From IMG/VR virus record IMGVR_UViG_3300046451_001604, positions 1 through 43,969 of that record: a stretch of 43,969 bases of DNA; one strand, given 5' to 3'. Numbering within the stretch: the stretch's first letter is position 1; every line of letters starts with the position of its first letter. The notes under the pieces were generated by a model that was not told the DNA's origin, ran no database searches, and was given only the letters and a program-made list of their open reading frames with translations. The translations under genes and the position numbers were made by a program. Shown here piece after piece: positions 257 to 38,459 of this stretch. The DNA is from a virus.

Positions 257-285
257 TTGACAACTTAAACAAACTATGATACAAT
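257..285 (+). promoter_or_regulatory. Sigma70-type promoter (early/middle)
   Basis: A -35 TTGACA (257-262) is followed 17 bases later by a -10 TACAAT (280-285). An extended -10 TG lies at 277-278. It sits 25 bases before the ATG at 311. The same layout occurs before gp32 and before the radical-SAM cassette. It looks like a host RNA polymerase promoter for the block of small genes that follows. Confidence 0.75.
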
Positions 286-850: not shown

Positions 851-1957
851 ATGGCACAATCAAAAAAAAGAAAAACTTTCTCTAGAAAAACTAAAACTGG
901 CTTTGCTGCCGCGCCGACTGATAACTTTCAACACTTCAATGACTATATAAGGATAGAAGTGGATAGGAAAGATATTGCCATAAAAATAAAAAACCATGTG
1001 AAGAAGTCTTTATCTAAGGAAGATGCTAAAATTGCATTACAAGCACCAGAATGGGCAATCAGTCAATCTCCTGGTTTAGCAGCAACCATTGCATGGGCAG
1101 AACTACAATTAGAATTTCCTACTTGGTGGAACGCTGAAAAGGTTCTCACAAAACAAGTTAATGAAATTCTGCGTCTTGGCAAGCGTAAACTTTTAAATAA
1201 AACTGATAATATTGGAGTTGTTACGACTCCGAGAAAATCTCCAGCAGAAATTATTAAAGAGCGCACTAGTGATTTTATTGGTGGTATTGAAATTATTATT
1301 GATAATTGGAAAGACGAAAAAGATTTCTCCATTTATAGTGAAATGAAAAAACACGATGTGCCTTACATTACAGCCAAAACAACGTATGATCATTACGTCC
1401 CATTAAAAGATGAATTAGACGAATTAGTAAACAAAAAAACTCCTGATCTTGTTGAGGGATATTCATCTATGAAAGTGAGCGACCAGAAAAAATATTTAAA
1501 GTTCGTAGATAATATTCTTACTGACATTGAAAAATATATGACAGCAAAGAAAGCAACTCGTAAGACACGTAAGCCTGTAGTAAAATCTGCTGAAAAACAA
1601 GTAGCGAAAATTCAATACTTAAAGGACTCTGTAGAATTTAAACTAGCGTCTATTAATCCTTCATCTTTGATTGGAGCGATGCGAGTTTATTTATTCAATG
1701 TAAAGACTAGGGCATTAACCGAATTGGTTTGCGAAAAGAGTTGTGGTTTTGAGGTAAAAGGGACAACTCTTCAAGGTGTTGATCTTGCGGCATCAAGAGT
1801 TACAAAATTGCGTAAACCAGAGGTCTTTATTCCAATGGTACTTAAAAAGACTTCAAACCAGATAAACAAAGAGTGGTCTAGTCTTACCACAAAAACAACT
1901 ATCGCAAATGGTAGGATTAATAAAGATACCATAATTTTAAGGGCAATGAATAAATGA
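851..1957 (+). CDS. Conserved T4-like phage protein, unknown function
   Basis: A 368-residue, Lys-rich soluble protein. The N-terminus is strongly basic (KKRKTFSRKTK). The middle is predicted helical, with a basic linker near KKATRKTRKPVVK. The C-terminal third (QVAKIQYLKDSVEFKL, INPSSLIGAMRVYLFNVKTR) resembles a protein common in marine T4-like phages; that is recollection. ATG 851 is preferred over an in-frame GTG at 842 because AGGAG (838-842) is spaced correctly for it. The stop overlaps the gp33-like gene. The basic character suggests nucleic-acid contact, but no motif proves it. Confidence 0.65.
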   Translation: MAQSKKRKTFSRKTKTGFAAAPTDNFQHFNDYIRIEVDRKDIAIKIKNHVKKSLSKEDAKIALQAPEWAISQSPGLAATIAWAELQLEFPTWWNAEKVLTKQVNEILRLGKRKLLNKTDNIGVVTTPRKSPAEIIKERTSDFIGGIEIIIDNWKDEKDFSIYSEMKKHDVPYITAKTTYDHYVPLKDELDELVNKKTPDLVEGYSSMKVSDQKKYLKFVDNILTDIEKYMTAKKATRKTRKPVVKSAEKQVAKIQYLKDSVEFKLASINPSSLIGAMRVYLFNVKTRALTELVCEKSCGFEVKGTTLQGVDLAASRVTKLRKPEVFIPMVLKKTSNQINKEWSSLTTKTTIANGRINKDTIILRAMNK

Positions 1958-2184
1958 TAGACAAAAGTTTTATGAACAGAGCAAAATTTAGCAAACTGAT
2001 TGAGGAACAAGTAATTGATAAAAAACTAGGTTATATTGATGCGGTTGTTGAGGTGTGCGGTATAACCAAACTTGAACCAGAAGATGTGAGCAAATTTATC
2101 TCACCAGTAATAAAGGAAAAGATTGAGGCCGAAGCAATGAGTCTTAATTTTTTACCTAAACAGAATGAATTGATTTTTGAATGA
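1954..2184 (+). CDS. gp33: gp33-like late-transcription accessory protein
   Basis: A 76-residue helical protein. The pattern NRAKFSKLIEEQV, GYIDAVVEVC, LEPEDVSKFISPVIKEKIEAEAMSLNFL matches my recollection of marine T4-like gp33. In T4, gp33 bridges RNA polymerase and the sliding clamp to activate late transcription at TATAAATA boxes. The presence of such boxes in this window fits. It is shorter than T4 gp33 (112 residues). It starts within the stop of the previous gene (ATGA). An internal ATG at 1972 is an alternative start. The assignment rests on pattern only. Confidence 0.6.
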   Translation: MIDKSFMNRAKFSKLIEEQVIDKKLGYIDAVVEVCGITKLEPEDVSKFISPVIKEKIEAEAMSLNFLPKQNELIFE

Positions 2185-2679: not shown

Positions 2680-2708
2680 TTGACACACACACAAAAATAT
2701 GATATAAT
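2680..2708 (+). promoter_or_regulatory. Sigma70-type promoter of gp32
   Basis: TTGACA (2680-2685), a 17-base spacer, then TATAAT (2703-2708) preceded by TG at 2700-2701 (extended -10). This is a consensus host-type promoter. A leader of about 50 bases follows, ending in TGGAGAAC before the gp32 ATG at 2765. Confidence 0.85.
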
Positions 2709-9376: not shown

Positions 9377-10095
9377 TGAGTTTTTTTAGCGGATTTCCAT
9401 TCACAAGTTATAAGTTTGGTAACGAAACTGATGTGGCCTATATTCAAAATATTTCGGCATACGTTGATATTGTTGATCAAGTAAAAGAAAATGTTTCTGT
9501 TTACCAAAAATATGATATTTTAGATGGTGAAAGACCTGATACATTATCACAAAAATTGTATGGCTCAACAAAATATTACTGGACGTTTTATTTGATGAAT
9601 GATTCAATTCGTAAAAATGGATTTCCATTATCATCTAATGAGTTAGACGTTTGGGTTAAACAAAAATATCCAAACACAACTTTAGTTACAAGAGACTATT
9701 TTTTTACTAAAATGAGAATCGGTGATAATATAACTGGAGTCAATTCTTCAACAAATGCTACAATTATTGACAGAGATGTTAATCTAGGTCACATTGTTGT
9801 AAGTGGTGTAAAATCATTTACTAATGGTGAAACTATTCAAAAAACTGGTGACGCTACGCAATCAGTAGTTTTAAATTCTCACTCTTTAGAATACAACGCA
9901 GCAAAATACTTTACTGACGCCAGCGGAAATCAAGTTGATATTGATCCAACAATTGGTGGAGGTTCAAACACAGAAGTCACCCATAGTATACATTATCACA
10001 AACAAAACAATGAAAATAAATCTATTAGAGTTGTAAGGCCAGAAATGATTTTAGAATTGTACGATATTTATAAATCATCGTTGTCGGTGGAATAA
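9376..10095 (+). CDS. gp53: gp53-like baseplate wedge protein
   Basis: A 239-residue protein (T4 gp53: 196). The block DGERPDTLSQKLYGSTKYYW and FYLMND corresponds to T4 RPEELANAIYGNPQLYWVLLMCND. In T4 it clamps the inner baseplate wedge. The middle contains a small beta-rich insert (GDNITGVNSSTNATIIDRD). ATG 9376 follows AGGAGTAGGA. The frame is open upstream into gp48 but that part is non-coding. Confidence 0.88.
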   Translation: MSFFSGFPFTSYKFGNETDVAYIQNISAYVDIVDQVKENVSVYQKYDILDGERPDTLSQKLYGSTKYYWTFYLMNDSIRKNGFPLSSNELDVWVKQKYPNTTLVTRDYFFTKMRIGDNITGVNSSTNATIIDRDVNLGHIVVSGVKSFTNGETIQKTGDATQSVVLNSHSLEYNAAKYFTDASGNQVDIDPTIGGGSNTEVTHSIHYHKQNNENKSIRVVRPEMILELYDIYKSSLSVE

Positions 10096-16371: not shown

Positions 16372-16379
16372 TATAAATA
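16372..16379 (+). promoter_or_regulatory. T4-type late promoter box for gp25 block
   Basis: TATAAATA in the 42-base gap between the needle gene and gp25, 24 bases before the ATG at 16404. AGAGAAAAAG just before that ATG is the ribosome binding site. Confidence 0.8.
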
Positions 16380-25200: not shown

Positions 25201-26625
25201 TCTATTAGTTCTGACGGTACTGTTGGAACTATATTTGTATTTGATGAACCAATTCGTCTAAAGGGTGGTAGTGATTATGCATTAGTATGCTTGACTGACA
25301 ATACTGATTATTTGTTATATACTTCAAAAGTTGGTGAATTTGTTTTGGGTACAACTGAAGAAAAAATCAATAGGCAACCATTTTTGGGTTCCTTGTTCAA
25401 ATCACAAAACAGTAAAACTTGGGAAGCGGCTCAATGGGAGGATATGAAATTTAAAATCCAAAGAGCAAAATTTACTGAAACTAGTGGTACAGTATTTTTA
25501 AAAAATGCTACAGTGCCAACAAGAGTTCTTGGTGTTGATCCAATCACTCTCTTTGGAAAGGATAGTCCAACACTTGTCGCATCAAAAACCACTGTTAAAG
25601 TTTCTGCGCCAAATCACGGATTATTGATTGGAGATAGTGTAGTTATATCGGGAGTTGTTAATTCTACCTATGGAAATGCAATTAACAATGGTGGCACGGC
25701 CCATACGATTACAGAAATTGATCCATATGGTTTTGCTTTCGTATCTTCAGACGGATTTATCACAGGTGCAGCAGCCACTGCATCTGTTGGTGGGCCTTTA
25801 TCACCAGTGATAACTGGTGGTTCAAATGTTACCATAACCCCACAATACGCCTATAATTTATCTTGGCCTAATATTGATGGTATAACACCGATTGGCACCA
25901 CTATCAATTTCACACATAAAGGTATAAGTGGAAAATCTTATGCAGGAAATGAATCTCCATATGTGCAGTATGGGGCGGAATCTGTCATAACAAAAACTAA
26001 TAATTATTATGAATACCCTAGAGTAATTTCTAACGCTATTAGAGAATCCCAACTAGGATATTCTTCTTTACAATTTTATGGTAATATGACAACCGTTTCG
26101 GATTTTGTATCACCAGTAATTGATATACAAAGAGCGTCAGTAACTTTAGTTGAAAATATAATAGATAACCCTGTTTCAGTTGATTCCTCTGCTCAAGGTA
26201 ATAATGTATTGTTTGATGTTACCACTACTGGTTACGATACATATAATCCAGAAACTGATCCCCTTGATGGGTCATCAGCAGCGAAACATATCACAAAATC
26301 GGTAAGATTACTATCCCCAGCAAATGGTCTGAAAGTTTTCATGGGAATTAATAAACCATCAGTTTGTAATGTGGATTTATATTATAAAGCAGAAATGGGT
26401 GAAATAGATTTTGAGAGTGTCAATTGGACTTTAGCAGAGTTAGACACTGCAATGCCAAGTGATGATGACGCTTCAACCTTTAGGGAATATATATACACTA
26501 TAGGTGGGGATATAGGAACATTACCAGATTTTACTAAATTTAAATTAAAAATTGTAATGCAATCTACAAATAGTTCCAGAGTTCCTGCGATTAGAGATTT
26601 AAGAGCAATAAGTTTAGGGGATTGA
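22255..26625 (+). CDS. Large DUF4815/gp10-type baseplate or fibre-socket protein
   Basis: A 1456-residue protein, the largest in the window. It starts with ISPGKAYVNGYKIQK, a conserved internal motif of the DUF4815 family. The middle contains WNEWEWNWGG, RYYRRTITGVNRTTS, FIPYMRSKMVFFKASGLQPN, MFAFFDDRPVTDW and GQLEGSFFIPSTDNIRFKTG, typical of this family in marine T4-like phages. C-terminal beta-rich domains follow, including a VKVSAPNHGLLIGDSVVISG segment. Likely part of the baseplate periphery that holds fibres. It is translationally coupled (TAATG) to the preceding ORF. Confidence 0.78.
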   Translation: MANIKLRISPGKAYVNGYKIQKNLPTFLSVSKATETATITNDTIGASYGHFVYITADTSSSDVNVKHLPNISDLGLVQIRNATAYGGTSVGSCRVRAMEKYDSVKDSAGVALVSHKLYIFDIQMYAGQFFSTGAKSIGTSDQNYVNIYQENLRSVVHSANNKGLIFSAAHPRIKSVVNLSMFQQKKYTVSRSANTTSITFSSASGEIFSNTNDWIITNHNGLIETPTITLNGSFNTVTISGLSVGSTVNATNVEVIGYIYKSNAVLAQKTRQNGTRNYTVPWTPGVKDAFVDLNELDIISVTAVRYADVNGDDITDKFILDNGQRDSFYETGKLRLKNGQSLDDTTIWVAFTHFEHGPGDYFAPNSYVGAGFGYNEINTYTMEDGSEVDLKDVIDLRPSKGQTGNDFTHSSARVSPVPKPISIITADIEYYLPRYDKLVVQQSGEFKYIEGVASMDPKFPDAPTSSMEIYRIRLNPFTLDSTDLSFSLIENKRYTMRDIGKIDKRIDDLEEAVSLSLLEMDTKNIQVFDENGNPRTKSGFTADNFSDQTHTDIYSTEYRASIDPQEQFTRPKFNPNNIGLVYDHTQSTGTVLVGDNIFLNYTNQDYLEQNLASGAENVNPFMISSFRGHVKMSPSSDDWKEIGYMGANIIDNGTRLNTDAAILWNEWEWNWGGSDLNGLEVGNEISQTGVTNEDPYSNVTEWRVRSGWLKTGKRYYRRTITGVNRTTSTVVNRIVGSETINEVVGDRFIQWSFIPYMRSKMVFFKASGLQPNTEMFAFFDDRPVTDWVKQESFSSYNTHKQTEYGNSQVNATGHPSGNTKLYSDNNGQLEGSFFIPSTDNIRFKTGALEFKLTDITKIDDDKAISIASGIFNSTGILDTHQEDIETTRVLEVVGTTEETSQRRIQLSDSGAVRIPHCVIDPLAQSFTVSESTGVYITNVTLYFKQKSSTMPVWIQIRPMVNGYPSSDVIVPGSQKLLTSPQVSISSDGTVGTIFVFDEPIRLKGGSDYALVCLTDNTDYLLYTSKVGEFVLGTTEEKINRQPFLGSLFKSQNSKTWEAAQWEDMKFKIQRAKFTETSGTVFLKNATVPTRVLGVDPITLFGKDSPTLVASKTTVKVSAPNHGLLIGDSVVISGVVNSTYGNAINNGGTAHTITEIDPYGFAFVSSDGFITGAAATASVGGPLSPVITGGSNVTITPQYAYNLSWPNIDGITPIGTTINFTHKGISGKSYAGNESPYVQYGAESVITKTNNYYEYPRVISNAIRESQLGYSSLQFYGNMTTVSDFVSPVIDIQRASVTLVENIIDNPVSVDSSAQGNNVLFDVTTTGYDTYNPETDPLDGSSAAKHITKSVRLLSPANGLKVFMGINKPSVCNVDLYYKAEMGEIDFESVNWTLAELDTAMPSDDDASTFREYIYTIGGDIGTLPDFTKFKLKIVMQSTNSSRVPAIRDLRAISLGD

Positions 26626-26626
26626 T

Positions 26627-26836
26627 ATGTTACTTTCTCAAATACAGGGCGAAAATAGATACGTTAAGGATTTAGAAACTGGGGCGATACTAAACACTGA
26701 TGTCACAGAAATTAAAAAATCAAAGGCGAGAAAGAAAAAAATGCGAGAAGAAAAAGAAGAAATTCAAATTTTAAAGTCAGAAGTTGCAGATATAAAAACT
26801 CTGCTGTTAGAAATTCACAGAAAGTTAGGTGATTAA
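26627..26836 (+). CDS. Small coiled-coil structural-type protein
   Basis: A 69-residue protein with a short N-terminal YVKDLETGAILNTD motif, a Lys-rich stretch (KKSKARKKKMREEKEE) and a C-terminal heptad-like helix (IQILKSEVADIKTLLLEIHR). It probably oligomerises. It sits between the large gp10-type protein and a fibre gene and overlaps the latter by one base. Function unknown. Confidence 0.6.
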   Translation: MLLSQIQGENRYVKDLETGAILNTDVTEIKKSKARKKKMREEKEEIQILKSEVADIKTLLLEIHRKLGD

Positions 26837-28041
26837 TGGCACGATTACAAAATGTTGATCTTAGCAATTCGGTAAATGCTTGGAGACTGAAAACAAACAT
26901 TACTGCTGGATATATTGGCGACTTAGATGATTTGAATACAAATATAACTAATAGTGTTGTAGGGTCAATAAATTCAATTCAGAGTAAATTTATTATTGGC
27001 GGTGAGGTGCAATCATTGGCAAAAACCGCATTAGCATTATCAACTGGTGGGGCTGGTACTTATGCAAGTTTATCTTATGCCGACTCAGGAGGTATTGGTG
27101 GAGGACTTTTCACATTTACATGTAATCCACTTACCCCAAATGATATTCCTAATTTAGATGCTGGAAAAATTACAACTGGTCAATTTCCATCATCTTTTTT
27201 AACCCAAATGGATGCTGGAAATATAACAACTGGAACATTAAACAGTGCTAGGTTACCTTATTTATCCGCAAATCAAACAACTTCTGACGTATTTCATGTT
27301 GATCGTATCCCAAATCTTTCTGCCACTAAAATAACATCAGGAATTCTTGGTCAAGACAGAATTCCGAATATTCCTTCAAGTAAAGTAATATACGATGGTA
27401 CTAAATTACCACTTTCGGCTATGGACCCTGCCCTTGTTAGAAATAATGTATCCACAATATATACTGGAACTAGACTGTATAATGGTACTAGTACGTTTAT
27501 GAATACAGTTACTGTTGGCAGTCCGGGAGCAACACCAGTTAACTCTACTTTTCATGGTCAAATAGATCATGATGGTAATATTATTCCCAGTACTACCGAT
27601 ATATATCAAATCGGTAGTACTGGATTCAAATATGCTGGTGTATATGCCACTACATTTTTTGGTAATGCCACTTCTGCAAACTTCGCTGACCTTGCGGAGA
27701 AGTATACCACAGATGAAGATTATCCAATAGGAACTGTTATGATGGTTAATTTTGATACTAATGGTGAAACCACAAAATGCGGCACTTCTGGTATTCCAGT
27801 TGGGGTTATCTCAGCAAAACCAGCGTTTTTGATGAACGCTGAAGCGGAAGGACAAGCACTTGCTCTTAAAGGTAGGGTTCCTGTTAGAGTATGTGGTCAA
27901 ATTAGAAAAGGTGAGGCTGTTTATACTTGGAAAAATGGGTGTGGTAGTACAGAATTTAATGGCGCACATATGATTGGAATATCACTTGAGACCAGTGATA
28001 TTGAAGATGAAAAAATGATTGAGTGCGTTCTTAAACTTTAA
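26836..28041 (+). CDS. Tail fibre protein with peptidase-G2-like C-terminal domain
   Basis: A 401-residue protein. The N-terminus (SNSVNAWRLKTNITAGYIGD, LDDLNTNITNSVVGSINSIQ) is related to the fibre after the cassette (EVWRNATNTMAEYVGDPDNL). The middle has repeated fibre turns (ITTGQFPSSFL, ITTGTLNSARLP, ITSGILGQDRIP). The C-terminus (SANFADLAEKYTTDEDYPIG, GVISAKPAFLMN, GRVPVRVCGQIRKGEAVYTW) resembles the peptidase-G2/intramolecular-chaperone domain of phage fibres. Likely a host-recognition fibre. It is the last gene before the accessory cassette. Confidence 0.72.
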   Translation: MARLQNVDLSNSVNAWRLKTNITAGYIGDLDDLNTNITNSVVGSINSIQSKFIIGGEVQSLAKTALALSTGGAGTYASLSYADSGGIGGGLFTFTCNPLTPNDIPNLDAGKITTGQFPSSFLTQMDAGNITTGTLNSARLPYLSANQTTSDVFHVDRIPNLSATKITSGILGQDRIPNIPSSKVIYDGTKLPLSAMDPALVRNNVSTIYTGTRLYNGTSTFMNTVTVGSPGATPVNSTFHGQIDHDGNIIPSTTDIYQIGSTGFKYAGVYATTFFGNATSANFADLAEKYTTDEDYPIGTVMMVNFDTNGETTKCGTSGIPVGVISAKPAFLMNAEAEGQALALKGRVPVRVCGQIRKGEAVYTWKNGCGSTEFNGAHMIGISLETSDIEDEKMIECVLKL

Positions 28042-28049
28042 ATTGTCTA

Positions 28050-28078
28050 TTGACATTCTAAATTATAAGGTTTATAAT
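28050..28078 (+). promoter_or_regulatory. Sigma70-type promoter of the radical-SAM cassette
   Basis: TTGACA (28050-28055), a 17-base spacer, then TATAAT (28073-28078), between a late fibre gene and the first cassette gene. The start codon at 28105 lies 27 bases downstream and AGAGGAT is its ribosome binding site. Same geometry as the gp32 promoter and unlike the TATAAATA late boxes. It implies that host-type polymerase reads the cassette, perhaps earlier than the surrounding late genes. Confidence 0.8.
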
Positions 28079-28104
28079 AACTTTAGTCATTAGAGGATTT
28101 TGTT

Positions 28105-28623
28105 ATGATCACTAAAAGTCAATTCTTGAGTATAATCTCAAGTGATATTGCATATGAGCAAAATATGGTCTATGCCATAGACGAAAATGGTAGAGAACAT
28201 CTCATGAAAAATTTTGCAGATACACTTGCAAATAAAGATACAAATTCAATAAAAATTGAAAGAATGGAAGCATACAACTCGGAAATTTTTTCTTATTGTT
28301 TAGAACTAGAAGATATGTATGAGCATAGTGGTCCAATAACATGTCATTTATTTTATGCTGAAAAAAATACTCATTCATTCAAAAAACATACTGATCCAGA
28401 TAATGTTGTTATATATTGTTGTGAAGGTATGAAAACTATAGCAATGGAAGGTCATACTATGGGCGGTGAACCAGTATTTACTTTGACGGCGGGTACAAGA
28501 TTACATATTCCTGCAAATACTCCACATCAAGCATTTAATGAACATGAAGCAATTACTTTAAGTTTTGGTCTAGAAAAATTTATAGAGGATAAAATAAATA
28601 GTGTTTTGGTCAGTATATCTTAA
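28105..28623 (+). CDS. Cupin-fold protein, possible Fe(II)-dependent oxygenase
   Basis: A 172-residue protein. The C-terminal half is a cupin barrel: HTDPDNVVIYCCEGMKTI, then LTAGTRLHIPANTPHQAFNE. His95 and Asp97 (HTD) with His141 (PHQ) form a plausible 2-His-1-carboxylate metal site, as in Fe(II) oxygenases of the cupin/JmjC type. The N-terminal about 70 residues are not recognised. First gene of the cassette; its end overlaps the radical-SAM gene by 23 bases. A hydroxylase of a peptide side chain is one possibility; a non-catalytic binding cupin is another. Confidence 0.65.
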   Translation: MITKSQFLSIISSDIAYEQNMVYAIDENGREHLMKNFADTLANKDTNSIKIERMEAYNSEIFSYCLELEDMYEHSGPITCHLFYAEKNTHSFKKHTDPDNVVIYCCEGMKTIAMEGHTMGGEPVFTLTAGTRLHIPANTPHQAFNEHEAITLSFGLEKFIEDKINSVLVSIS

Positions 28624-29620
28624 AACCACAGAAACTTGTCAATTAAACTGTAAGCACTGTTTTACTTCTGGTAGCAATGGTGCTAAAATTTATTGGAATA
28701 CTGATAAGATAGTTGATTGGATACATAGATTTCGTGAAGAAAAACCTGCGAAGGGTGATGGTATTCATTTAGAGTTTCATGGCGGCGAACCATTTCTTGT
28801 ACCTGTAGGGCAAATGAGAAAGGTATATGATGCTTGTGATGGTCTTTGGGATAATATGAGTTGGGGTGCAACAACCAATTTAGTGTATAAATTAAAAGAT
28901 CAACATAGAGAATTTATAAAAGGTCCACTTAGAAATAGATTGGGAACTTCATGGGACAGAAAAATAAGATTTGATAATCAAAGACAATATAACTTATGGC
29001 ATAAAAATGTCAAGTCTCTTTTAGCAGATGGTGTAACTATACGTTTGTTTATTAGTCTTACTAAAGATACTTTAGAAAAAGACCCTATTGTATTATTGAG
29101 ATGGTGTAGAAGATTAGGGGTTCAAGAGGTATCTTTAGAGAGATTGACTAATAATGGTTCAGCGCGTGAAGCATCAGAAATATTTCCATCAAATAAAGAG
29201 TTAGATGCTTATTTTTTGAAAATGCATCAACAAAGTGAAGAATATGGGGCGCGAGAATGGTTTGAAAATGATTTTTTTGAAAATATATATGCTAAATTTG
29301 AGAAAACTCTTACGACATGTGGTACTTTTTGTAGAGATTGTGAAACAAAACTATTCACAATAAACGGTGATGGTACAATAAGTGGTTGTCCAAATTCAGC
29401 ACCAGAATTTCAGTTCGGAACTTTAGATGATTCCATTAAAACTCTTATAAATAGTCCTAGAAGAATAAGAACTATTATTGAAGAAAAGATGAGAAACCCC
29501 AATTGTCTCTCTTGTCCTGTTGCAAAATATTGCGGTGGTGATTGTCACCAATTAGGATGGGAAGGTGATGTATGTGGCGCACCTAAAAGTTTAATGATGG
29601 AATTGGCAAAGAATGTCTAG
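28601..29620 (+). CDS. Radical-SAM protein with SPASM-like domain (rSAM 1)
   Basis: A 339-residue protein. The [4Fe-4S] SAM motif is CQLNCKHC (Cys13, Cys17, Cys20), and EFHGGEPFLV is the GGE SAM-binding motif. The C-terminus has many cysteines (CGTFCRDC, GTISGCPNS, CLSCPVAKYCGGDCHQ), typical of SPASM auxiliary cluster domains of peptide-modifying enzymes. The start is GTG at 28601, inside the cupin gene, with AGAGGAT upstream. It lies directly before the Cys-His-tailed protein, which makes that protein the prime substrate candidate. Confidence 0.85.
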   Translation: MFWSVYLKTTETCQLNCKHCFTSGSNGAKIYWNTDKIVDWIHRFREEKPAKGDGIHLEFHGGEPFLVPVGQMRKVYDACDGLWDNMSWGATTNLVYKLKDQHREFIKGPLRNRLGTSWDRKIRFDNQRQYNLWHKNVKSLLADGVTIRLFISLTKDTLEKDPIVLLRWCRRLGVQEVSLERLTNNGSAREASEIFPSNKELDAYFLKMHQQSEEYGAREWFENDFFENIYAKFEKTLTTCGTFCRDCETKLFTINGDGTISGCPNSAPEFQFGTLDDSIKTLINSPRRIRTIIEEKMRNPNCLSCPVAKYCGGDCHQLGWEGDVCGAPKSLMMELAKNV

Positions 29621-29630
29621 GAGATAAAGA

Positions 29631-30500
29631 ATGACGATATCAGACCCTATTACAGAAAATCCTGTAGTTACAAAATACAGACAGTTTGTGACTGATAGAA
29701 TTAATAATCAAATCGTGTATGGAGATGATAATTTACCAAAGCGAAGTATGGCTTCGTTTTTTAATGGAACAACAGATGGAATTGTATCGAATCCTGATCT
29801 TTTTGATGGGCCAATTGATGCTGCAAATATATTTGCTATTCTTTTGAATGATGTTAACAAATATACTAGAGTTAGAAGATTTAACGCGAATATTACAGTT
29901 ACTGGTGGTTCACCTACTGGTAATACACCTATTCCAGCCGTAAATACTTCTGCGAATAATGCCGCAAATTTAGAAAAAGCGTTCGCTTGTGAGTGGGTTA
30001 CGACAGTGAATTCAGGAATTAAAACAGTTCCTATTGGTACAACAGGGCCATGGGATAATAAATCTTGGGCTAATGATTTTTATGCAAAACACAATACTTT
30101 AGGTATCCAAGATTATGATGCTATTCAAATCGCACTAGACTCATCTGGATCATTTATCTCAGCGGTAGCACATAGTGATGTTGGAAATGCTTGCATAAAA
30201 GCAACACAAAAATATGCTGTGACAATCAAAATCCCTGCACTGGTGGGGAGCAGTAAATCATATAATGATATTGGTATTCTGACAGCAAAACATTCATTTG
30301 AAATTGATTCGGCAGATGTTGATCACTCTATGATTGTCCAAGGAGATGTTATGGATGACGCCGACTTTGAACAATTATTCAATAATCTTTATACAGCATG
30401 GGAGACTGTTGCACTGGGTTCCTCACCAATTAATTATAAAGAAGTAGTTTGTCATGCAAATTGTCATGCAAGTTGCCATTCATCAAGAAATAGGAGATAA
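29631..30500 (+). CDS. Protein with C-terminal Cys-His repeat tail; candidate modified substrate
   Basis: A 289-residue protein. The N-terminal about 260 residues look like a folded, beta-rich, fibre- or virion-like protein (SDPITENPVVTKYRQFVTD, ITVTGGSPTGNTPIPAVNT). The last 18 residues are VVCHANCHASCHSSRNRR: three CH dipeptides at exact four-residue spacing (Cys274, 278, 282), then a Ser/Arg end. Only one or two cysteines occur elsewhere. AGGAGATAAA just before the ATG gives strong translation. Being embedded among radical-SAM and oxygenase genes, the tail resembles a RiPP core. Function inferred; metal binding by the unmodified tail is an alternative. Confidence 0.7.
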   Translation: MTISDPITENPVVTKYRQFVTDRINNQIVYGDDNLPKRSMASFFNGTTDGIVSNPDLFDGPIDAANIFAILLNDVNKYTRVRRFNANITVTGGSPTGNTPIPAVNTSANNAANLEKAFACEWVTTVNSGIKTVPIGTTGPWDNKSWANDFYAKHNTLGIQDYDAIQIALDSSGSFISAVAHSDVGNACIKATQKYAVTIKIPALVGSSKSYNDIGILTAKHSFEIDSADVDHSMIVQGDVMDDADFEQLFNNLYTAWETVALGSSPINYKEVVCHANCHASCHSSRNRR

Positions 30501-30507
30501 TTTTATT

Positions 30508-31161
30508 ATGAGTAATCATGTTACAGTGACTGCACCATTGGGTATTGACGATTTGCAGAAATATTTTTCTGATGACAGTATTAATTTTATTATTGACTAT
30601 GAAAATAGTGAGTTACAAGGCGAGAAATTACTTGTATATTTAAGTAACTTAGAGTTACCTTGTGATATTAAAACTGAAGGAAAGGATTTAGAGAACCTTG
30701 CGAAAATTTATCTTCAGTTTCCACAAATATTAAATATTAAAGTTTTAGAAGAATTTATTCTTGAGGTTCTTTTGGTAAGAAAAAACCTATCTTTAGAGTG
30801 TTTAGGTTGCTATCAAGATTTTATTAATGATAATGAAGAAGTGATTGATATTTGGATTAAAAAATTGGATTCATTGACACTCTATAATATGTATATTATC
30901 CAAGATGATGAAATGAAAGATTGGGTATTATCGTATAAAGAAGATGATACAGATGATATAAAGGGTATAAATTTCGTATCTTTGTTGAAACATGAAGATT
31001 TTTATTATTACTATAACGGTTTAGATGAAAAAAACTTGACCTATTATTCAAAATATTTTAATGAATATATGTTTAACGGAAAGAGTTTATTTGATTATTG
31101 GTCTTATAAAAAAAATCCACTTTTCTTATTGACTTGGGGAGTTGGCGCAGGAGAAGTTTAA
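30508..31161 (+). CDS. Cassette protein, unknown function
   Basis: A 217-residue acidic, helix-rich protein (DDLQKYFSDDSINFIIDYEN, LEEFILEVLLVRKNLSLECL). ATG 30508 was chosen because AGGAGA, encoded in the last codons of the preceding gene, is correctly spaced. An ATG at 30454 in the same frame would overlap the Cys-His tail codons. It ends LLTWGVGAGEV. No domain recognised. It sits between the candidate substrate and the second radical-SAM gene, so it could be a partner or recognition protein. Confidence 0.6.
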   Translation: MSNHVTVTAPLGIDDLQKYFSDDSINFIIDYENSELQGEKLLVYLSNLELPCDIKTEGKDLENLAKIYLQFPQILNIKVLEEFILEVLLVRKNLSLECLGCYQDFINDNEEVIDIWIKKLDSLTLYNMYIIQDDEMKDWVLSYKEDDTDDIKGINFVSLLKHEDFYYYYNGLDEKNLTYYSKYFNEYMFNGKSLFDYWSYKKNPLFLLTWGVGAGEV

Positions 31162-32202
31162 TTGGATTTAGTAGATTTTATTTTAAGAGATAAGAGAGAC
31201 AAACAACAAGAATACACAATTCATTTATTTGAATTTTGTAATCTGTCTTGTCCATTTTGCTGGCAAGACCACGACAACATTGTGGGTATTGATACGGTAT
31301 TAGACAAGTTGGAATCAATAGAAAAGTTTTTTCAAAAAGAGATGCGGAAACATGTAGTTTTAAACATCATGGGTGGTGAAATTTTTGCCGATGAGATTTT
31401 TGATGAAAAACTAAAAAATGATTATATTTCTCTTGCACAAGGCATAACAGACTTAGGAAAAAAATATAAGTTTGAGAGCATAGGTATTAATTGGGTTACT
31501 AACCTTGTAATTAGTAAAAGAGACTATGTGCGCGATCTATTGAAGGCGTGTAGAGATATGGGGTGCAAATCCAAACTCGTAACTTCATATGACCCTAGAG
31601 GTAGATTTAACAAACCAAACTTAGAGATTTTCAAAGAAAATGTATATGATTTCTGGGATGATTTAGAAGGCATAGGAGTCCTTCTTACTAAATCAAATAT
31701 CAAATATTGGTTAAGTGATCCAAAAGATTTTATGCACGAATTATATCATAAGGGTGTTAAAGTTTATGCTGATTACTACATGCCTGATTGTCAGGCAGAA
31801 AGAAGTATGCCGACAGACAAAGAGCATTATGATATTTTCACGCATTTTATAGATAAGTATCCTAAAATTGAGCCTATTCGTTCTTGGATAGAAAATGAGC
31901 GTAATGTTGTTTCATGCAGATCATCTAAATTAGTTCTTGAGGATGGAACCATGTGTTTGTGTGGAAATCTTGTTCAAGAGCCAAGAGATAAAGCGATGTA
32001 CAAAACAGACATACAGAAGGCTAATAACAAACCTATTGAAAAGGCTTTCCTTGAAAAGTATAATTGCTCTACTTGTGAATATTTTCATAGATGTACTCTT
32101 GGGTGTTTCATGGCACATGATTATAAATATGCAGAAGAGGTTTTTGATGAATGTGTCTATAAAATGACACATAGATACATTGAAAATAAAGGATTAAGAT
32201 GA
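31162..32202 (+). CDS. Radical-SAM protein with Cys-rich C-terminus (rSAM 2)
   Basis: A 346-residue protein. The cluster motif is CNLSCPFC (Cys26, Cys30, Cys33) and NIMGGEIFAD is the GGE motif. The C-terminal part has VSCRSSKLVLEDGTMCLCGN and CSTCEYFHRCTLGC, a SPASM-like auxiliary cluster region. The start is TTG, directly after the previous stop; GGAGAAG seven bases upstream supports it. Probably a peptide- or protein-modifying radical-SAM enzyme. Confidence 0.8.
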   Translation: MDLVDFILRDKRDKQQEYTIHLFEFCNLSCPFCWQDHDNIVGIDTVLDKLESIEKFFQKEMRKHVVLNIMGGEIFADEIFDEKLKNDYISLAQGITDLGKKYKFESIGINWVTNLVISKRDYVRDLLKACRDMGCKSKLVTSYDPRGRFNKPNLEIFKENVYDFWDDLEGIGVLLTKSNIKYWLSDPKDFMHELYHKGVKVYADYYMPDCQAERSMPTDKEHYDIFTHFIDKYPKIEPIRSWIENERNVVSCRSSKLVLEDGTMCLCGNLVQEPRDKAMYKTDIQKANNKPIEKAFLEKYNCSTCEYFHRCTLGCFMAHDYKYAEEVFDECVYKMTHRYIENKGLR

Positions 32203-32203
32203 G

Positions 32204-32839
32204 ATGTTTTTTTATAAAAATGGCGATAAATCTCCAATTAGCCAATCCTTTATAAATAGATTTCCAACAAGAAAAAGATTAACTAATCCAATTAAAGAAA
32301 TTGATATAGAGTATAATGTATGCCATACAGTATTTGATTATTTAGTTGATACTAAATTACCACCATGCATTCATTTTTTAGATAATTTTTTGAGAAGTGA
32401 AGTGTACGTGTTTAGTGTTCCACTATCAAGTAATTTATTATCTAAAGTTAATAGTAAATCTATGATGGAAGATTATACTACTCAATTTACTGGATCACCC
32501 AAAACAGTAGTAAATAATGATTATGAGTTAGGATGGATTGGCATAGAGAAAACTAAAAATTATACAATAATGTCAAATATTCAAATAAATGGAATTTATA
32601 GAGATTGCTTAACCAGAAGGCAAGAAATAGATTTTTATAAAACTATGATCAAGTTTTGTAAAGGTGAAATATTGAATATGCCAATTTATGTGCCTACAGC
32701 CGAAACACTATACACACAAATGAAAAAAAACCCTGCACATCCTGATAGTGCTATAATGGAAACACCTTACACATCTAAGGTTTTAAAGGGGTTCACAAAG
32801 ATACAATTTATGAATATGGAGTTTTATAAAAATGATTAA
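32204..32839 (+). CDS. Cassette protein, unknown function
   Basis: A 211-residue soluble protein starting MFFYKNGDKSPISQSF, with KLPPCIHFLDNFLRSEVYVF and YELGWIGIEKTKNYTIMSNI. No domain recognised. A TATAAATA string at 32251-32258 lies within its coding sequence and is probably chance. It overlaps the next radical-SAM gene by eight bases. Confidence 0.6.
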   Translation: MFFYKNGDKSPISQSFINRFPTRKRLTNPIKEIDIEYNVCHTVFDYLVDTKLPPCIHFLDNFLRSEVYVFSVPLSSNLLSKVNSKSMMEDYTTQFTGSPKTVVNNDYELGWIGIEKTKNYTIMSNIQINGIYRDCLTRRQEIDFYKTMIKFCKGEILNMPIYVPTAETLYTQMKKNPAHPDSAIMETPYTSKVLKGFTKIQFMNMEFYKND

Positions 32840-34499
32840 AGTAGGTTATGTGAATCCAACAGGAATACCCTCAAGAGCAGAATTTAACTATCATTGGATG
32901 CTTTTTAAATGTTTTTATGAAGATTATGGAAAATATCCAGAAAAAGTTACTTGGGTGGAGCCAATATTCAAATGGAATGAAGTTACAATACAAGATTGTT
33001 TGGATAATGTTAAAGGGTGTTCCATTGTATTTTTTACCAACTATGTTTGGAATTATAAAATTAACCAAAGGATACGAAATGGTCTTGATCCAGATACCAT
33101 AGTAGTTATGGGTGGGCCTCAACAAGACCCTGATATAATAAAAGATTATGACTATGTTGCAGACCCTCTTGCTCCAGGAGAAATATTTGTACAATACTTT
33201 CTTGATATGTATCTAGAGGATTCTGTTGATAAGAAAAAGATTCCATTTTATTTGGGTAGTTCTTTAAAAATTCCTCTTCCATTTGGACATACGAATGTAT
33301 ATAGGAGGTGTGAAGATTATTTTACCAAAGAATATGAACACTTCATAAAAAATATAGACCTATATGAGCGAATAACATTGATATATGAAAGCACTAGAGG
33401 ATGCCCATTTAAGTGTTCTTATTGCGAGTGGGGTGGTGGTACTGGCACAAAGGTTTTAAAAAAACCTATGAATATCATAAAAGATGAAATGGAATTTATA
33501 GGGGGCTTTAAGGGTGTGCATATCGATTTGTGTGATGCTAATACAGGAATGTTTAAAGAACGCGACAGAGAAATGATGATGCACATGGTAAATAATGGAG
33601 TTCAAATTGGTGAAAATCTATCGGTATTAAAAACTTTAAAATTGGAGCAGAAAAAAGAAATGCTTGATTTTATGATTGAGCATGATATTACTCGCCAAGT
33701 CATCAGTATTAGTTTACAGTCTATTTCAGAAGAAGCGAGAAGAATAGCAAATAGAAGAGACCTTAATGTTGAAGAAACCTATGAATTGGTAGATCATTTA
33801 ACTAGTAAATGGAATAATTTTAAAGAAAAAGAATTATGGTTAGATTTAGAATTAATTTTAGCAATGCCAGGGTCTACATTAAAAGATTTTTACGAAGAAT
33901 TTAAAGTATATTATAGAGTTGGATATAATGAAGGAAAGGATTGGGAAGAATGGAAAGGTCTTGATGTATGGGCAGACACTAGATATCCTTATATGGTTTT
34001 ACCAGCAACTGAAACTGCTAGTAAAGAATATCAAGAAAAATATAAAATAAAAACATCAAAGGTACTGACACAATTTGATGGCAACTATAGTGGAAAATGG
34101 GATGATGTTGAAGTAAATCCAATATATGGTGATGTGTCATACGAATATGATACTATAGTTGAATGTTTTTCATATACGTTTGAAGAATATTTAGAAATGT
34201 TCATAATGAATTTATTCACACCACATGTGGGTTTAAGTTTTATAAAAGAATATACCAATTATGAAAACGTGAGTGAAGTGGCAAAAGAGTTGTGGAATAT
34301 ATTGAACGATATACCAATGTTTTTTGTTTACAAAGAACTGATAAGAAATATATTTCTTGATAATAATTCTCATAGTATAGATAAGTTTGAAGTGGGTAGT
34401 TTTAAAGGCAAAGATATTGTAAATGAAATGAAACTCTTACTAGATAAGAATGAAGAAATGGTAAAGGAAAGATTAGATGAATTCTGTAGAAATTTATGA
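32832..34499 (+). CDS. Cobalamin-binding-type radical-SAM protein (rSAM 3)
   Basis: A 555-residue protein. Residues about 1-140 look like a B12-binding Rossmann domain (GCSIVFFTNYVWNYKINQ, DTIVVMGGPQQDP, YDYVADPLAPGEIFVQYF). The DxHxxG base-off histidine motif is not seen. The radical-SAM cluster motif is CPFKCSYC (Cys191, Cys195, Cys198) after LIYESTRG, with HIDLCDANTGMFKERDRE typical of the family. B12-radical-SAM enzymes often methylate unactivated carbons. The substrate is unknown; the cassette suggests a protein or peptide. Confidence 0.82.
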   Translation: MIKVGYVNPTGIPSRAEFNYHWMLFKCFYEDYGKYPEKVTWVEPIFKWNEVTIQDCLDNVKGCSIVFFTNYVWNYKINQRIRNGLDPDTIVVMGGPQQDPDIIKDYDYVADPLAPGEIFVQYFLDMYLEDSVDKKKIPFYLGSSLKIPLPFGHTNVYRRCEDYFTKEYEHFIKNIDLYERITLIYESTRGCPFKCSYCEWGGGTGTKVLKKPMNIIKDEMEFIGGFKGVHIDLCDANTGMFKERDREMMMHMVNNGVQIGENLSVLKTLKLEQKKEMLDFMIEHDITRQVISISLQSISEEARRIANRRDLNVEETYELVDHLTSKWNNFKEKELWLDLELILAMPGSTLKDFYEEFKVYYRVGYNEGKDWEEWKGLDVWADTRYPYMVLPATETASKEYQEKYKIKTSKVLTQFDGNYSGKWDDVEVNPIYGDVSYEYDTIVECFSYTFEEYLEMFIMNLFTPHVGLSFIKEYTNYENVSEVAKELWNILNDIPMFFVYKELIRNIFLDNNSHSIDKFEVGSFKGKDIVNEMKLLLDKNEEMVKERLDEFCRNL

Positions 34500-35007
34500 C
34501 GATTTTTTGAATCAAGAACAAATTAATGATATACGAAATATGTTTTCTTTTGATAAGTCGGCAATGGATGATCTTCCAAGATTTAATATGCAAAAAAATA
34601 TGGCAATAAATATTAAAAATCATATGGACGATTTTCCAAATTTAAATAAAGCAAAAACTATTGCATTATGTAAAGATTCAAATATAGGTAAAATTGCTAT
34701 ATCACATTTAATTAAGATTGTCAAGTATGAAGAAGATAATAATGAAAATATGATTTGGGAACCACATCATGATGGAACAGAGTCTAAAATCATTACTTTA
34801 TTTTTTATAGATATAGATGATAATGGTTGGCAAGGTGGTGAGTTAGATATTTATGATTCTCTTGATATTTTTCAATATCCAAAAAATAAGACTAGAATAC
34901 AACCAAAAGTGGGTAGGTTAGTAGTTTTTAATAGTTCTATGGTACATTGTATTAGACCTTATTTTGGCTCTAAACCAAGAATGACTGTAAGTGTGGGTTG
35001 GGAATAA
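34477..35007 (+). CDS. Fe(II)/2-oxoglutarate oxygenase, prolyl-hydroxylase-like
   Basis: A 176-residue protein. The pattern EIYDDFLNQEQINDIRNMF, EPHHDGTESKIITLFFIDID, GGELDIY, VGRLVVFNSSMVHCIRPYFG, PRMTVSVGW is the classic 2OG-Fe(II) oxygenase barrel. Fe ligands are His97, Asp99 (HxD) and His157; Arg168 would bind 2-oxoglutarate. It likely hydroxylates a peptide or small molecule. The gene starts inside the end of the B12-radical-SAM gene with AAAGGAAAG upstream. Confidence 0.85.
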   Translation: MNSVEIYDDFLNQEQINDIRNMFSFDKSAMDDLPRFNMQKNMAINIKNHMDDFPNLNKAKTIALCKDSNIGKIAISHLIKIVKYEEDNNENMIWEPHHDGTESKIITLFFIDIDDNGWQGGELDIYDSLDIFQYPKNKTRIQPKVGRLVVFNSSMVHCIRPYFGSKPRMTVSVGWE

Positions 35008-35008
35008 A

Positions 35009-35563
35009 ATGAATATTGATAAAAATTCTGGATGCTTTATTGAGAACAATCCCGATATGTTTATTCATATAAAAGATACGTTACCAAAATTAAAATGGTT
35101 ATACTTAAAGAGAAGCGATTCAAAAAAATCTGATAGATGGCAAAGTGTGGCATGGAATTATTATTTTCACTCTATGAGAAGTAAGATGTTAAAAACTGCC
35201 GATTTACTTTGGGAAACATACTTACCGTGGGAGACCGAAAAGAACTTGGATTATTATACTATGTGGAATGGGACTGACACTGGTTCGTGTGAGTGGCATC
35301 ATGATACTGAAGGTGGTAACTTACAATTTAATTTGTATTTTACAGACTCAGAACCGAATAATGGTGGTGAGATAATGTACAGAAATATGAAAGAAAATAA
35401 TAGAATAACTACTTTTCATCTACCTAAAAAATACGATATAGTAATGGGAAGTGTAGGTGATGATTTAAAGTTCCAGCATAGAGTTGAGCATACAAGAGAA
35501 TTGAAGCAAGAAAGAATAACAATGCTTTTTAGATTTAAAGTAAAGGAATCTCCATGGAAATAA
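35009..35563 (+). CDS. 2OG-Fe(II) oxygenase-like protein, tandem copy A
   Basis: A 184-residue protein. EWHHDTEGGNLQFNLYFTD, NNGGEIMYRN and FQHRVEH, QERITMLFRF indicate a 2OG oxygenase core: His97, Asp99, His157 and Arg169. It is clearly paralogous to the next gene. ATG 35009 was chosen over an upstream start at 34991 because it follows the stop of the preceding gene and aligns with the paralogue's start. It overlaps copy B by ten bases. Confidence 0.78.
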   Translation: MNIDKNSGCFIENNPDMFIHIKDTLPKLKWLYLKRSDSKKSDRWQSVAWNYYFHSMRSKMLKTADLLWETYLPWETEKNLDYYTMWNGTDTGSCEWHHDTEGGNLQFNLYFTDSEPNNGGEIMYRNMKENNRITTFHLPKKYDIVMGSVGDDLKFQHRVEHTRELKQERITMLFRFKVKESPWK

Positions 35564-36138
35564 AAGACCAAGGATACGTTATGGAAAATAATAAAAATAT
35601 GTTTATTCATATTGATGATACCATTCCAAGATTAAAATGGTTAAGTATGAGTAGTGATAATATTCCAAAAATAAAATGGTTAAATGAGGGTGATGATTGT
35701 AAAAGTTATAGCATCTGTTGGAATTATCATTTGAATGGTATGCGAAATAAGATAAAGAAAACTGCTGATTTATTGTATGAGACATATCTATCAAAGTATG
35801 ACAATTGTTATGAGAACAAAAAATTAATATATTCATATATTTGGAATGGAGCATGTGATGGTTCTAGTTCTTGGCATAATGATTTAAAAGAAGGTGCAAA
35901 TGTTTTCTTTTTATTATATTTTACTGATATGGAACAAGGAGTCGGCGGCGAAATAATGTTCCGAAATATGACCCAAAATAAAAAAGTCACTTGTTATCAC
36001 TTACCAAAAAAATATGATCTTATATTAGGTAGCCAAGATTTAAATTTTCAACATAGAGTTGAGGATTTTAGAAAACCTAACGTGCAAAGAATCACAATGA
36101 ATTTCGGATTTAATATAAAGAATTCTCCATGGACTTAA
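35554..36138 (+). CDS. 2OG-Fe(II) oxygenase-like protein, tandem copy B
   Basis: A 194-residue paralogue of copy A. Shared blocks are ENNxxMFIHIxDTxPxLKWL, KTADLLxETYL, GGEIMxRNMxxN, HLPKKYDxxxGS and FQHRVE. The site is His108, Asp110 (HND), His167 and Arg179. It starts in the TCTCCATGG junction at the end of copy A and ends with the same junction at the start of the next gene, so the duplication carried the overlap with it. AAAGGAA is the ribosome binding site. Confidence 0.78.
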   Translation: MEIKDQGYVMENNKNMFIHIDDTIPRLKWLSMSSDNIPKIKWLNEGDDCKSYSICWNYHLNGMRNKIKKTADLLYETYLSKYDNCYENKKLIYSYIWNGACDGSSSWHNDLKEGANVFFLLYFTDMEQGVGGEIMFRNMTQNKKVTCYHLPKKYDLILGSQDLNFQHRVEDFRKPNVQRITMNFGFNIKNSPWT

Positions 36139-37163
36139 TTATTAAACCAACAGAATTATGCAATTTTAAATGCACATTTTGTTCTTCATCTAAAATTACT
36201 CAAGAGGATAATACTGCTGTACTTGATTTGAATAAGATATTCAAATTTCTTAAAAGATTTCCTGAAACGCAAACTATTATCGTAAATGGTGGTGATCCTT
36301 TAATGATGAAACCCAATTACTATTGGAAGTTAATAGAGTTTTTAGATAAGCATGACATGCCAGCGACGATATCCCTTACAACTAATTTGTATCCTTTTTT
36401 AATGAAACCAAAAAAATGGGTAGAACTCTTTAATCATAATAGAATTGGTGTTGGAACTTCATTTCAGTATGGTGGGGGTAGACTTAAAGGTGATTACAGC
36501 GAATTTACCGAAGAAGATTTTTGGAAGTGTTCTGATGCGATGCTTGAGCATGTGGGGTATAGACCTTCGTTTATTGCAGTGATTGTGGATGAAAATGAAG
36601 ATACTGTAATACAGACTGTAGAACTTGCTAAGAAGATGGATGTTGTTTGTAAGGTGAATTATGCTATGGCATCTGGTTCTCAATCTGCGCCATATAGACT
36701 TTCAAAAATATATGAAAGATATATTCAAATTTGGAAAGCAGGTTTAAGTGATTGGGAACATAACACTCAACAAATGTTAAATAGGTTAAGAAAAAAGCCA
36801 ACTATATGTCCTCAGTCCAGAAATTGCGATAGCGGTATTCGTAATATTCAACCAGAGGGTGATTATTATTCTTGTGGGGCTTTTGGTGATGATCTTGACA
36901 AACCAATAGATTTTGAATATGAAATGAATGGAGGTTTTGAAACACCTCTCAGTAATGATTTGAGTTTAATGAGTCTTAAAAATTCATGTTTTACTTGTCC
37001 TATGTTTGAAATTTGTAACGGATGCCGTAAAACAATTAAAGACTTGAAACAACATAACATGGTTGAAGATCATTGTAAACATATGAAATCTATGGCAAAA
37101 GACATAATTTCTTTAAATAGAATGGACACTAAAGTTACTGAATATGTAAGAGAATATGCATGA
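36129..37163 (+). CDS. Radical-SAM protein with SPASM-like domain (rSAM 4)
   Basis: A 344-residue protein. The motif CNFKCTFC (Cys11, Cys15, Cys18) follows MDLIIKPTEL; IVNGGDPLMM is the GGE-equivalent, with Asp for Glu. C-terminal cysteines ICPQSRNCDSGI, GDYYSCGAFG, CFTCPMFEICNGCRK, EDHCKHM fit a SPASM domain. It overlaps copy B by ten bases and the next radical-SAM gene by four (ATGA), so translation is coupled. Confidence 0.83.
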   Translation: MDLIIKPTELCNFKCTFCSSSKITQEDNTAVLDLNKIFKFLKRFPETQTIIVNGGDPLMMKPNYYWKLIEFLDKHDMPATISLTTNLYPFLMKPKKWVELFNHNRIGVGTSFQYGGGRLKGDYSEFTEEDFWKCSDAMLEHVGYRPSFIAVIVDENEDTVIQTVELAKKMDVVCKVNYAMASGSQSAPYRLSKIYERYIQIWKAGLSDWEHNTQQMLNRLRKKPTICPQSRNCDSGIRNIQPEGDYYSCGAFGDDLDKPIDFEYEMNGGFETPLSNDLSLMSLKNSCFTCPMFEICNGCRKTIKDLKQHNMVEDHCKHMKSMAKDIISLNRMDTKVTEYVREYA

Positions 37164-38089
37164 TTGTATCTGTAAATCCATCTTATTTTTGTAATTTCCG
37201 CTGTGATTTTTGTTATCTTACTTCAAAACAATTAGGCGATCAGAAAAAAATTTCAATTGAGAGACTTGATGAATTACTTTCACAAATTCCAGATATAGAG
37301 CATGTTGATCTATATGGCGGTGAAATTGGTGCTATGAAAAAAAATTATTTTTATGATGTTAAAAATACAATTAAAAAGTATTATGATGGAAAAATAAATA
37401 TCAACACAAATTATTCCATGATGCACGATGGTTTCTTTGATGATGACGTTTATTTATCAGTTTCTTATGATTTTGAAGCAAGAGAGAAATCAGATTTAGT
37501 GTTTCAAAATATGATGATGAGTACAGTGCCTCTCGCAGTTCTTATTCTTGCATCACCACAAGTTTTGAGTATGAATGTAAGTAAGATGATAAAACTATTG
37601 AATATGTGTGGTGCTGTTAAATCAGTAGAAATTAAGCCATATTCTATTAATCAAGCAAATGCGTTTACTGTGACGCATTTGGATTTTGAAAACTTTGTTA
37701 TTCAATGGATGGAACTAGAAGATCAGATGAATTTTCAGTTTGTAAATGGAGATAAGATAGAGGAGTCTTTTAATGGACTATACAATGCATTTTCGGATGA
37801 TCATGTTTACATTACTCCTAACGGCAAGTTTGGAGTACTGGAGTTTGATGTACATGATAGAGAATACTTTCACGAATTGGATTCTTTCCAATCTTATATA
37901 GAATGGACAGAAAAAGAAAAAGAAGAAATGATAAGTCCGATTTGCACTTCATGCAAATATTTTGGTAATTGTTTAACAGAACATTACCGATATGTCAAGG
38001 ATTTAGATAATGGGTGTAACGGATATAAAGGACTATTGGATTGGTATGAAAAAATGGAGAACAGCATCCCAAGTTTATCACTTACTTAA
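37160..38089 (+). CDS. Radical-SAM protein with short Cys-rich C-terminus (rSAM 5)
   Basis: A 309-residue protein. CNFRCDFC (Cys11, Cys15, Cys18) and VDLYGGEIGAM are the radical-SAM motifs. The C-terminus CTSCKYFGNCLTEHY and DNGCNGYKGL has fewer cysteines than a full SPASM domain, closer to a twitch-type domain. It is related in size and layout to rSAM 4 and starts in its stop codon. Substrate unknown. Confidence 0.8.
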   Translation: MIVSVNPSYFCNFRCDFCYLTSKQLGDQKKISIERLDELLSQIPDIEHVDLYGGEIGAMKKNYFYDVKNTIKKYYDGKININTNYSMMHDGFFDDDVYLSVSYDFEAREKSDLVFQNMMMSTVPLAVLILASPQVLSMNVSKMIKLLNMCGAVKSVEIKPYSINQANAFTVTHLDFENFVIQWMELEDQMNFQFVNGDKIEESFNGLYNAFSDDHVYITPNGKFGVLEFDVHDREYFHELDSFQSYIEWTEKEKEEMISPICTSCKYFGNCLTEHYRYVKDLDNGCNGYKGLLDWYEKMENSIPSLSLT

Positions 38090-38456
38090 TAGAGAGTATT
38101 CAGATGACTTGAATAAAATGGATGTGACATGGAGTGAAGAAAATATAGTTAGAGATGCTGTTTTGCATTTCAATGAATATGTTGATGAAACTATTAGACC
38201 AGCGAAATCATATTTTGTTGCTATATGTTATGCACATTGGTTATCTGAAGATTTCAATGAAGATTTCTTTGAATTACTAAATGATAAATACTTACTGGCA
38301 GAGAATGATCCACATTTTATTCAATATAATTTAGACATTGATACTTATGATCAAATATTGAAAAATATAGAATTTCCTTTAGAAATGATAGGAATGGTTC
38401 CAGATGTTAGAAAATATTATGAGGATGAGTTTAAACTAGCACTAAAAACCTTATAA
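38046..38456 (+). CDS. Cassette protein, unknown function (last gene)
   Basis: A 136-residue helical acidic protein (WSEENIVRDAVLHFNEYVDE, KSYFVAICYAHWLSEDFNED). It overlaps the end of rSAM 5 by 44 bases. ATG 38046 is the best internal start; an ATG at 38010 in the same frame is possible, and no strong ribosome binding site decides between them. Its end merges with a late promoter box. No domain recognised. Confidence 0.55.
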   Translation: MKKWRTASQVYHLLNREYSDDLNKMDVTWSEENIVRDAVLHFNEYVDETIRPAKSYFVAICYAHWLSEDFNEDFFELLNDKYLLAENDPHFIQYNLDIDTYDQILKNIEFPLEMIGMVPDVRKYYEDEFKLALKTL

Positions 38457-38459
38457 ATA
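38452..38459 (+). promoter_or_regulatory. T4-type late promoter box for downstream fibre genes
   Basis: TATAAATA overlaps the stop codon of the last cassette gene and lies 36 bases before the fibre ATG at 38496. It restores late transcription after the cassette. Confidence 0.7.

Follow-up and report, generated by a model that had tools for sequence, protein, structure and literature searches.

The stretch of DNA analysed here (virus record G000; hereafter the window) is a genome fragment of 43,969 bases from a T4-like phage, whose gp32 was found by tblastn to be closest to those of Phage C48C1, Melnitz and HTVC008M (50–54% identity). A plus-strand tail cluster of 31 genes extends from 8345 to 42720 and contains a cassette of roughly 10 kb (28105–38456), which is opened by a cupin-like gene and encodes several putative protein-modifying enzymes and their candidate substrate (Table 1). 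Genes of the same kinds occur in cassettes of distant phages, jumbo phages included, and a literature search for a described phage radical-SAM cassette found no paper about one. A second set of such genes is present in the related genome G001 (48460–59999; L164 8119–8551; L052/L051 region), consisting of a pair of CHxxCH genes in tandem and, on the minus strand, a group of cupin, RS1, RS3 and RS2. The tail cluster has just three gaps that are 25 nt or longer. Two of them, upstream of gp25 and of the fibre gene at 38496, contain TATAAATA late boxes, and the third, the widest (63 nt), contains the site that is the subject of this work, at positions 28050–28078. The fibre-like gene at 26836 has no promoter-sized gap upstream.

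Table 1. Features of the window relevant to transcription of the cassette
Feature	Position	Strand	Evidence or remark
Same-class promoter 5' of phrog_1086 gene	257..285	+	TTGACA-N17-TACAAT; TATAAATA at 236 beside
gp33-like late-promoter transcriptional regulator (late co-activator)	1954..2184	+	phrog_254, 3e-19
Same-class promoter 5' of gp32	2680..2708	+	TTGACA-N17-TATAAT; gp32 by tblastn
Nearest 5' late box, before gp25	16372..16379	+	possible read-through source into cassette
Tail-fibre-like gene just 5' of site	26836..28041	+	PHROG tail fibre 1e-12
-35 hexamer TTGACA	28050..28055	+	exact
-10 hexamer TATAAT, 17-nt spacing	28073..28078	+	exact
Predicted short 5' leader	28085..28104	+	ribosome site AGAGGA 28092-28097, read from sequence
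Cupin-like, first cassette gene	28105..28623	+	Pfam Cupin_2 1e-5 (below curated cut-off); JmjC_2 above cut-off
Radical SAM/SPASM protein RS1	28601..29620	+	phrog_1802 5e-61; SPASM domain above cut-off
Candidate substrate	29631..30500	+	C-terminal CHANCHASCHSSRNRR; no own late box here
phrog_20767 protein	within 30454..38456	+	profile match
Radical SAM	31162	+	profile match
B12/KedN5-like radical SAM	32832	+	profile match
2OG-Fe(II) oxygenase-like	34477-36138	+	profile match
Radical SAM genes	36129 and 37160	+	profile match
Last listed cassette gene	38010	+	part of 30454..38456
Late box TATAAATA closing cassette	38452..38459	+	overlaps last stop; 5' of fibre gene 38496

A sigma70-type site at the head of the cassette

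The original prediction placed a consensus sigma70 promoter upstream of the first cassette gene, and the plus strand at 28050–28078 was indeed found to read exactly TTGACA-N17-TATAAT. The -35 hexamer begins 8 nt past the stop of the fibre gene (28041), and 27 nt separate the -10 hexamer from the cassette ATG (28105). Thus, the site has the traits of T4-like early (sigma70) promoters, namely hexamers 16–18 nt apart in an intergenic position near a start. From the spacing, transcription would begin at about 28085, and the A(G/A)AGGA ribosome site in the predicted leader is preserved in relatives L005–L009. No late box NATAAATA was found in the gap 28042–28104, and the cassette head therefore does not qualify as a T4 late promoter. 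A MotA middle promoter of the T4 kind (TGCTTtA near -30 plus a -10 hexamer) was considered and rejected, as neither the 17-nt spacer nor the -35 region holds such a box and a full -35 is present instead. A match on the minus strand (ATGACT-N17-TATAAT, 28090–28062) was dropped because it is absent in L007.

Exact matches to TTGACA-N15–19-TATAAT number three in the window (2680, 14587 and 28050), as compared to a mean of 0.24 in 100 dinucleotide shuffles, none of which reached three, and in a PWM scan of the whole window 28050 and 2680 shared the top score. Simulation with Markov sequence of intergenic composition puts the expected number of exact N17 sites in a 63-nt gap at about 3.5e-5, a rough figure given the few simulated hits. 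The match at 14587–14614 (TTGACA-N16-TATAAT) lies within a baseplate (structural) ORF, is identical in G003 and G005, is common to near relatives only, and is probably a coding chance. That the cassette site is itself a chance match might be argued from the AT-richness of this DNA (window GC 34%) and from the fact that weak sigma70-like matches occur about as often as shuffling predicts (97 versus 95.8), for which reason only strong sites count as evidence. However, a perfect site 27 nt 5' of a start and kept in about 20 contigs is hard to reconcile with this explanation, which the conservation of the hexamers, described below, renders extremely unlikely.

The upstream regions of 22 cupin genes from the marine T4-like clade, window included, were compared. 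All of them have the site, with TTGACA or TTTACA as the -35 hexamer, and the -10 is TATAAT in every marine T4-like relative with the site except L018 (TAAAAT). Since some hexamer positions are dictated by the search pattern, a fair test is provided by groups A and C, which are collinear without the pattern. In group A, comprising the six closest sequences, the -35 starts 55 nt 5' of the ATG in all, and 12 of 12 hexamer positions are invariant versus 5 of 17 in the spacer (p = 1e-4); the corresponding test in group C gave p = 2e-3, positions and sequences not being fully independent in either case. Across 15 sequences from three lineages, 10 of 12 hexamer positions and none of the 17 spacer positions are invariant. 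Retention of hexamers and spacing while the spacer diverges supports conservation of the site by selection. It also argues against the site being an inactive or vestigial relic in a cassette expressed only late by read-through, as does the tandem pair of promoter copies in the L017 lineage. Such a relic would fit the existence of several related cassettes that abut a fibre gene and are promoterless (gap below 25 nt in 32 of 74 distinct heads), yet is judged very unlikely.

The arrangement of the site varies among relatives. In L017 (about 9415–9519) the two tandem copies 5' of the cupin gene read TTTACA-N17-TATAAT, and L027, in which the cupin ORF start and the site overlap, was left out of the judgement. 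In lineage C (L011 9485–9520 and equivalents) only 6 nt separate the end of the -10 from the cupin ATG, so that a leaderless transcript is predicted; the same is predicted for a primase of G001 at 92682. At the cassette heads of L090 (3677), L127 (2325) and L166 (6598) a composite TTGACA-N17-TA(T/C)TATAAATA was observed, in which the sigma70 -10, reading TA(T/C)TAT, overlaps the late box. Among the 74 distinct cassette heads the exact site is found in 18, nearly all from the marine T4-like clade, and most of the distantly related cassettes have no such promoter at the head. That many related cassettes lack a promoter here indicates that it is dispensable for the function of the cassette.

Promoter classes in these phages and origin of the site

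The same promoter type had been predicted before gp32 and before early-type genes at 257–285. The former is an exact match; in the latter the TTGACA and the N17 spacing were confirmed, but the -10 (TACAAT) agrees in five of six positions and a late box TATAAATA is adjacent, at 236. The contig G003 (90 kb) shares most of the window, at 75–97% nucleotide identity, and reaches 57 kb further to the left; in it, nrdB, an exonuclease, a phrog_385 regulator, gp32 and the cassette are each preceded by a site of this class. The main strand of G001 has fourteen TTTACA-N17-TATAAT sites, 5' of gp45, gp43, primase, nrdB and gp32, among others. Thus, in the window, G003 and G001 alike, the class that heads the cassette also heads early and replication genes. 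The 'early' and 'middle' classes are not distinguishable by sequence. In C48C1, which is cassette-free, the gene junction is closed at the cassette position, and 15 exact sites are located outside the tail cluster and none inside.

The style of the -35 hexamer differs between genomes. Among N17-TANNNT sites the ratio of TTGACA to TTTACA is 15:1 in G003, 0:13 in G004, 3:37 in G001 and 2:17 in G002, and at the cassette head the -35 is TTGACA for the G003 lineage and TTTACA for the G004 lineage. The -35 of the cassette promoter thus follows the phage genome in style, not the cassette. This bears on the proposal, part of the original prediction, that the cassette could be self-contained mobile cargo moving with its own promoter, as in the shuffling of T4 promoter-early-stem-loop (PeSL) elements. 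In line with such cargo, the same gene kinds are found in distant phages including jumbo phages, and novel genes in T4-like phages are often under early promoters (PMC1524935). Apart from the host-style -35, however, the promoter is missing from most of the distant cassettes, whereas PeSL elements are shared at the borders of shuffled modules; no plus-strand terminator-like site was detected in 26000–28105, leaving the promoter without the adjoining stem-loop of a PeSL; and RS1 shows 86% protein identity to that of G004 with only 45% identity at 4-fold sites, as core genes do, a level of divergence that speaks against recent transfer. The proposal accordingly fared poorly and is considered quite unlikely. 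Host-style -35, patchy distribution and core-like divergence combined indicate that the promoter is regulatory wiring of the phage clade and not a recently moved package.

Late boxes, the candidate substrate and the order of expression

Structural genes had been said to use TATAAATA boxes. Their number in the window shows no excess (11 versus 9.0 expected), but their positions are informative: five of the 11 lie 8–75 nt 5' of a gene start, where only 3.7% of positions fall (p = 2.5e-5), and this enrichment was found in four of four genomes tested (p 2.5e-5 to 9e-13). The statement thus holds for operon heads only, namely the gp2-like gene (7823, minus strand), gp48 (8327), gp25 (16372) and the fibre gene (38452). 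In G003 such boxes stand 5' of endonuclease VII, the gp2-like gene, gp48 and gp25. The box at 38452 is conserved in L007–L010 and L018. The scan of proteins, which covered part of G003, gave no match to the late sigma factor gp55. The sigma70-type site of the cassette, predicted to be separate from these late boxes and of the gp32 class, was borne out as such by the same-class sites and by its conservation.

The gene after RS1 ends in CHxxCHxxCHx(S/A)RxRR in all cassettes examined, those of jumbo phages included; in the window the tail reads CHxxCHxxCHxSRxRR. The non-motif part varies between 140 and 319 residues (window, L004–L048). When searched for by the motif only, the tail lay directly 5' of the stop codon in 114 of 118 viral stretches. 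As in radical-SAM RiPP systems, a precursor candidate with a conserved core adjoins a SPASM maturase, and this gene is likely the substrate of the cassette. Its predicted fold (mean pLDDT 74) had no match among solved structures in the PDB and two significant matches in BFVD, with an Atu_ph07 protein below them. All three look like members of the substrate's own family, so the fold is uninformative on virion membership. The CHxxCH terminal motif was also seen in L207, L215, L234, L263, L268 and L281, contigs binned as Bdellovibrio and Bacteriovorax relatives.

It had also been proposed that the modifying enzymes might be made ahead of their substrate. This is not written in the window genome, since the substrate gene is third in the same sigma70 operon, 10 nt after RS1, and has no late box. 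The proposed arrangement is, however, present in a sister lineage. In lineage C (L011–L023), 11 of 11 sequences have a sigma70 site, TTTACA-N17-TATAAT, at the cupin head and TATAAATA 33–34 nt 5' of the substrate; this box overlaps the RS1 stop. More generally, TATAAATA occurs within 90 nt 5' of the substrate start in 28 of 129 distinct copies versus 8 of 1467 control stretches (p = 2.5e-25, overstated because sequences are related). A further possibility, given somewhat less than an even chance, is that these phages encode a timetable for protein modification: the first enzymes would be under host-sigma70 control and a gp55-type late box would govern the substrate, for which the maturases would then wait. 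Lineage C carries this timetable in writing, whereas enzymes and substrate share the sigma70 operon in the window lineage.

Expression of the cassette and comparison with known systems

These observations make it highly probable that 28050–28078 is a functional sigma70-type promoter of the early/middle class, by which expression of the cassette is uncoupled from that of the late genes. Initiation near 28085 by host RNA polymerase carrying the host sigma factor would allow the operon of cupin, radical-SAM, substrate and oxygenase genes to be transcribed without the gp55/gp33-dependent late switch, the late promoter at 38452 then taking over for the fibre genes. Transcripts reading through from the late promoter at 16372 would probably contribute late expression of the cassette as well. 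We infer that the site is recognized by unmodified host polymerase and that the cassette is expressed ahead of late genes; it is probably switched on separately from, and earlier than, the virion genes. As background, the analysis of Melnitz treated predicted sigma70 promoters as early and TATAAAT as late and detected no middle promoters (PMC9004378), and cyanomyoviruses are without MotA and AsiA (PMC2984593).

The most substantial alternative, to which we give somewhat less than an even chance, is continuous expression, in which the early promoter is joined by equal or greater late read-through from 16372 and serves dose, the role proposed for overlapping early and late promoters in RB49-like middle transcription. 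Enzymes would then be present throughout and timing would not be the point. Plus-strand terminator-like sites are few between 16372 and 28105, which favours such read-through, as do the composite heads of L090, L127 and L166 and the dual-promoter model of RB49/S-PM2 (PMC2984593). The cassette head of the window, however, has no late box, and the box at 38452 would be little needed if strong late transcription crossed the cassette. Continuous expression is compatible with a real promoter and differs from the preferred reading, early uncoupled expression, only in when the promoter matters.

For a cassette that is widespread and unstudied, the choice between virion assembly and host takeover becomes a simple question of timing. 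Separate promoters for enzymes and substrate, each conserved, would show a phage scheduling a multi-enzyme protein modification, and would help to name the substrate.

The site resembles the T4-like early promoters of Melnitz, S-PM2, Syn9 and RB69 in its TTGACA/TATAAT hexamers, 17-nt spacing and intergenic position; those promoters similarly precede replication and novel genes, and their use by host polymerase has been inferred (PMC9004378, PMC2984593, PMC1524935). Unlike them, it lies among the tail-fibre genes of the late cluster and heads a 10-kb modification operon. The arrangement resembles the PeSL elements of T4-like phages in that an early-type promoter borders an accessory module, but no stem-loop terminator was found next to it and distant copies of the module do not share the promoter. 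Overlap of early and late promoters has been proposed for RB49 (PMC2984593), a layout matched at the heads of L090, L127 and L166, whereas the window head is sigma70 only. RiPP family models gave no match to the cassette at cut-off except for the general SPASM domain. The cassette is nonetheless like RiPP clusters (DynA, PapB, CXXX-repeat) in pairing radical SAM/SPASM enzymes with a neighbouring protein whose C-terminal Cys/His tail is conserved, and unlike them in being phage-borne and in the large variable N-terminal part of its substrate candidate.
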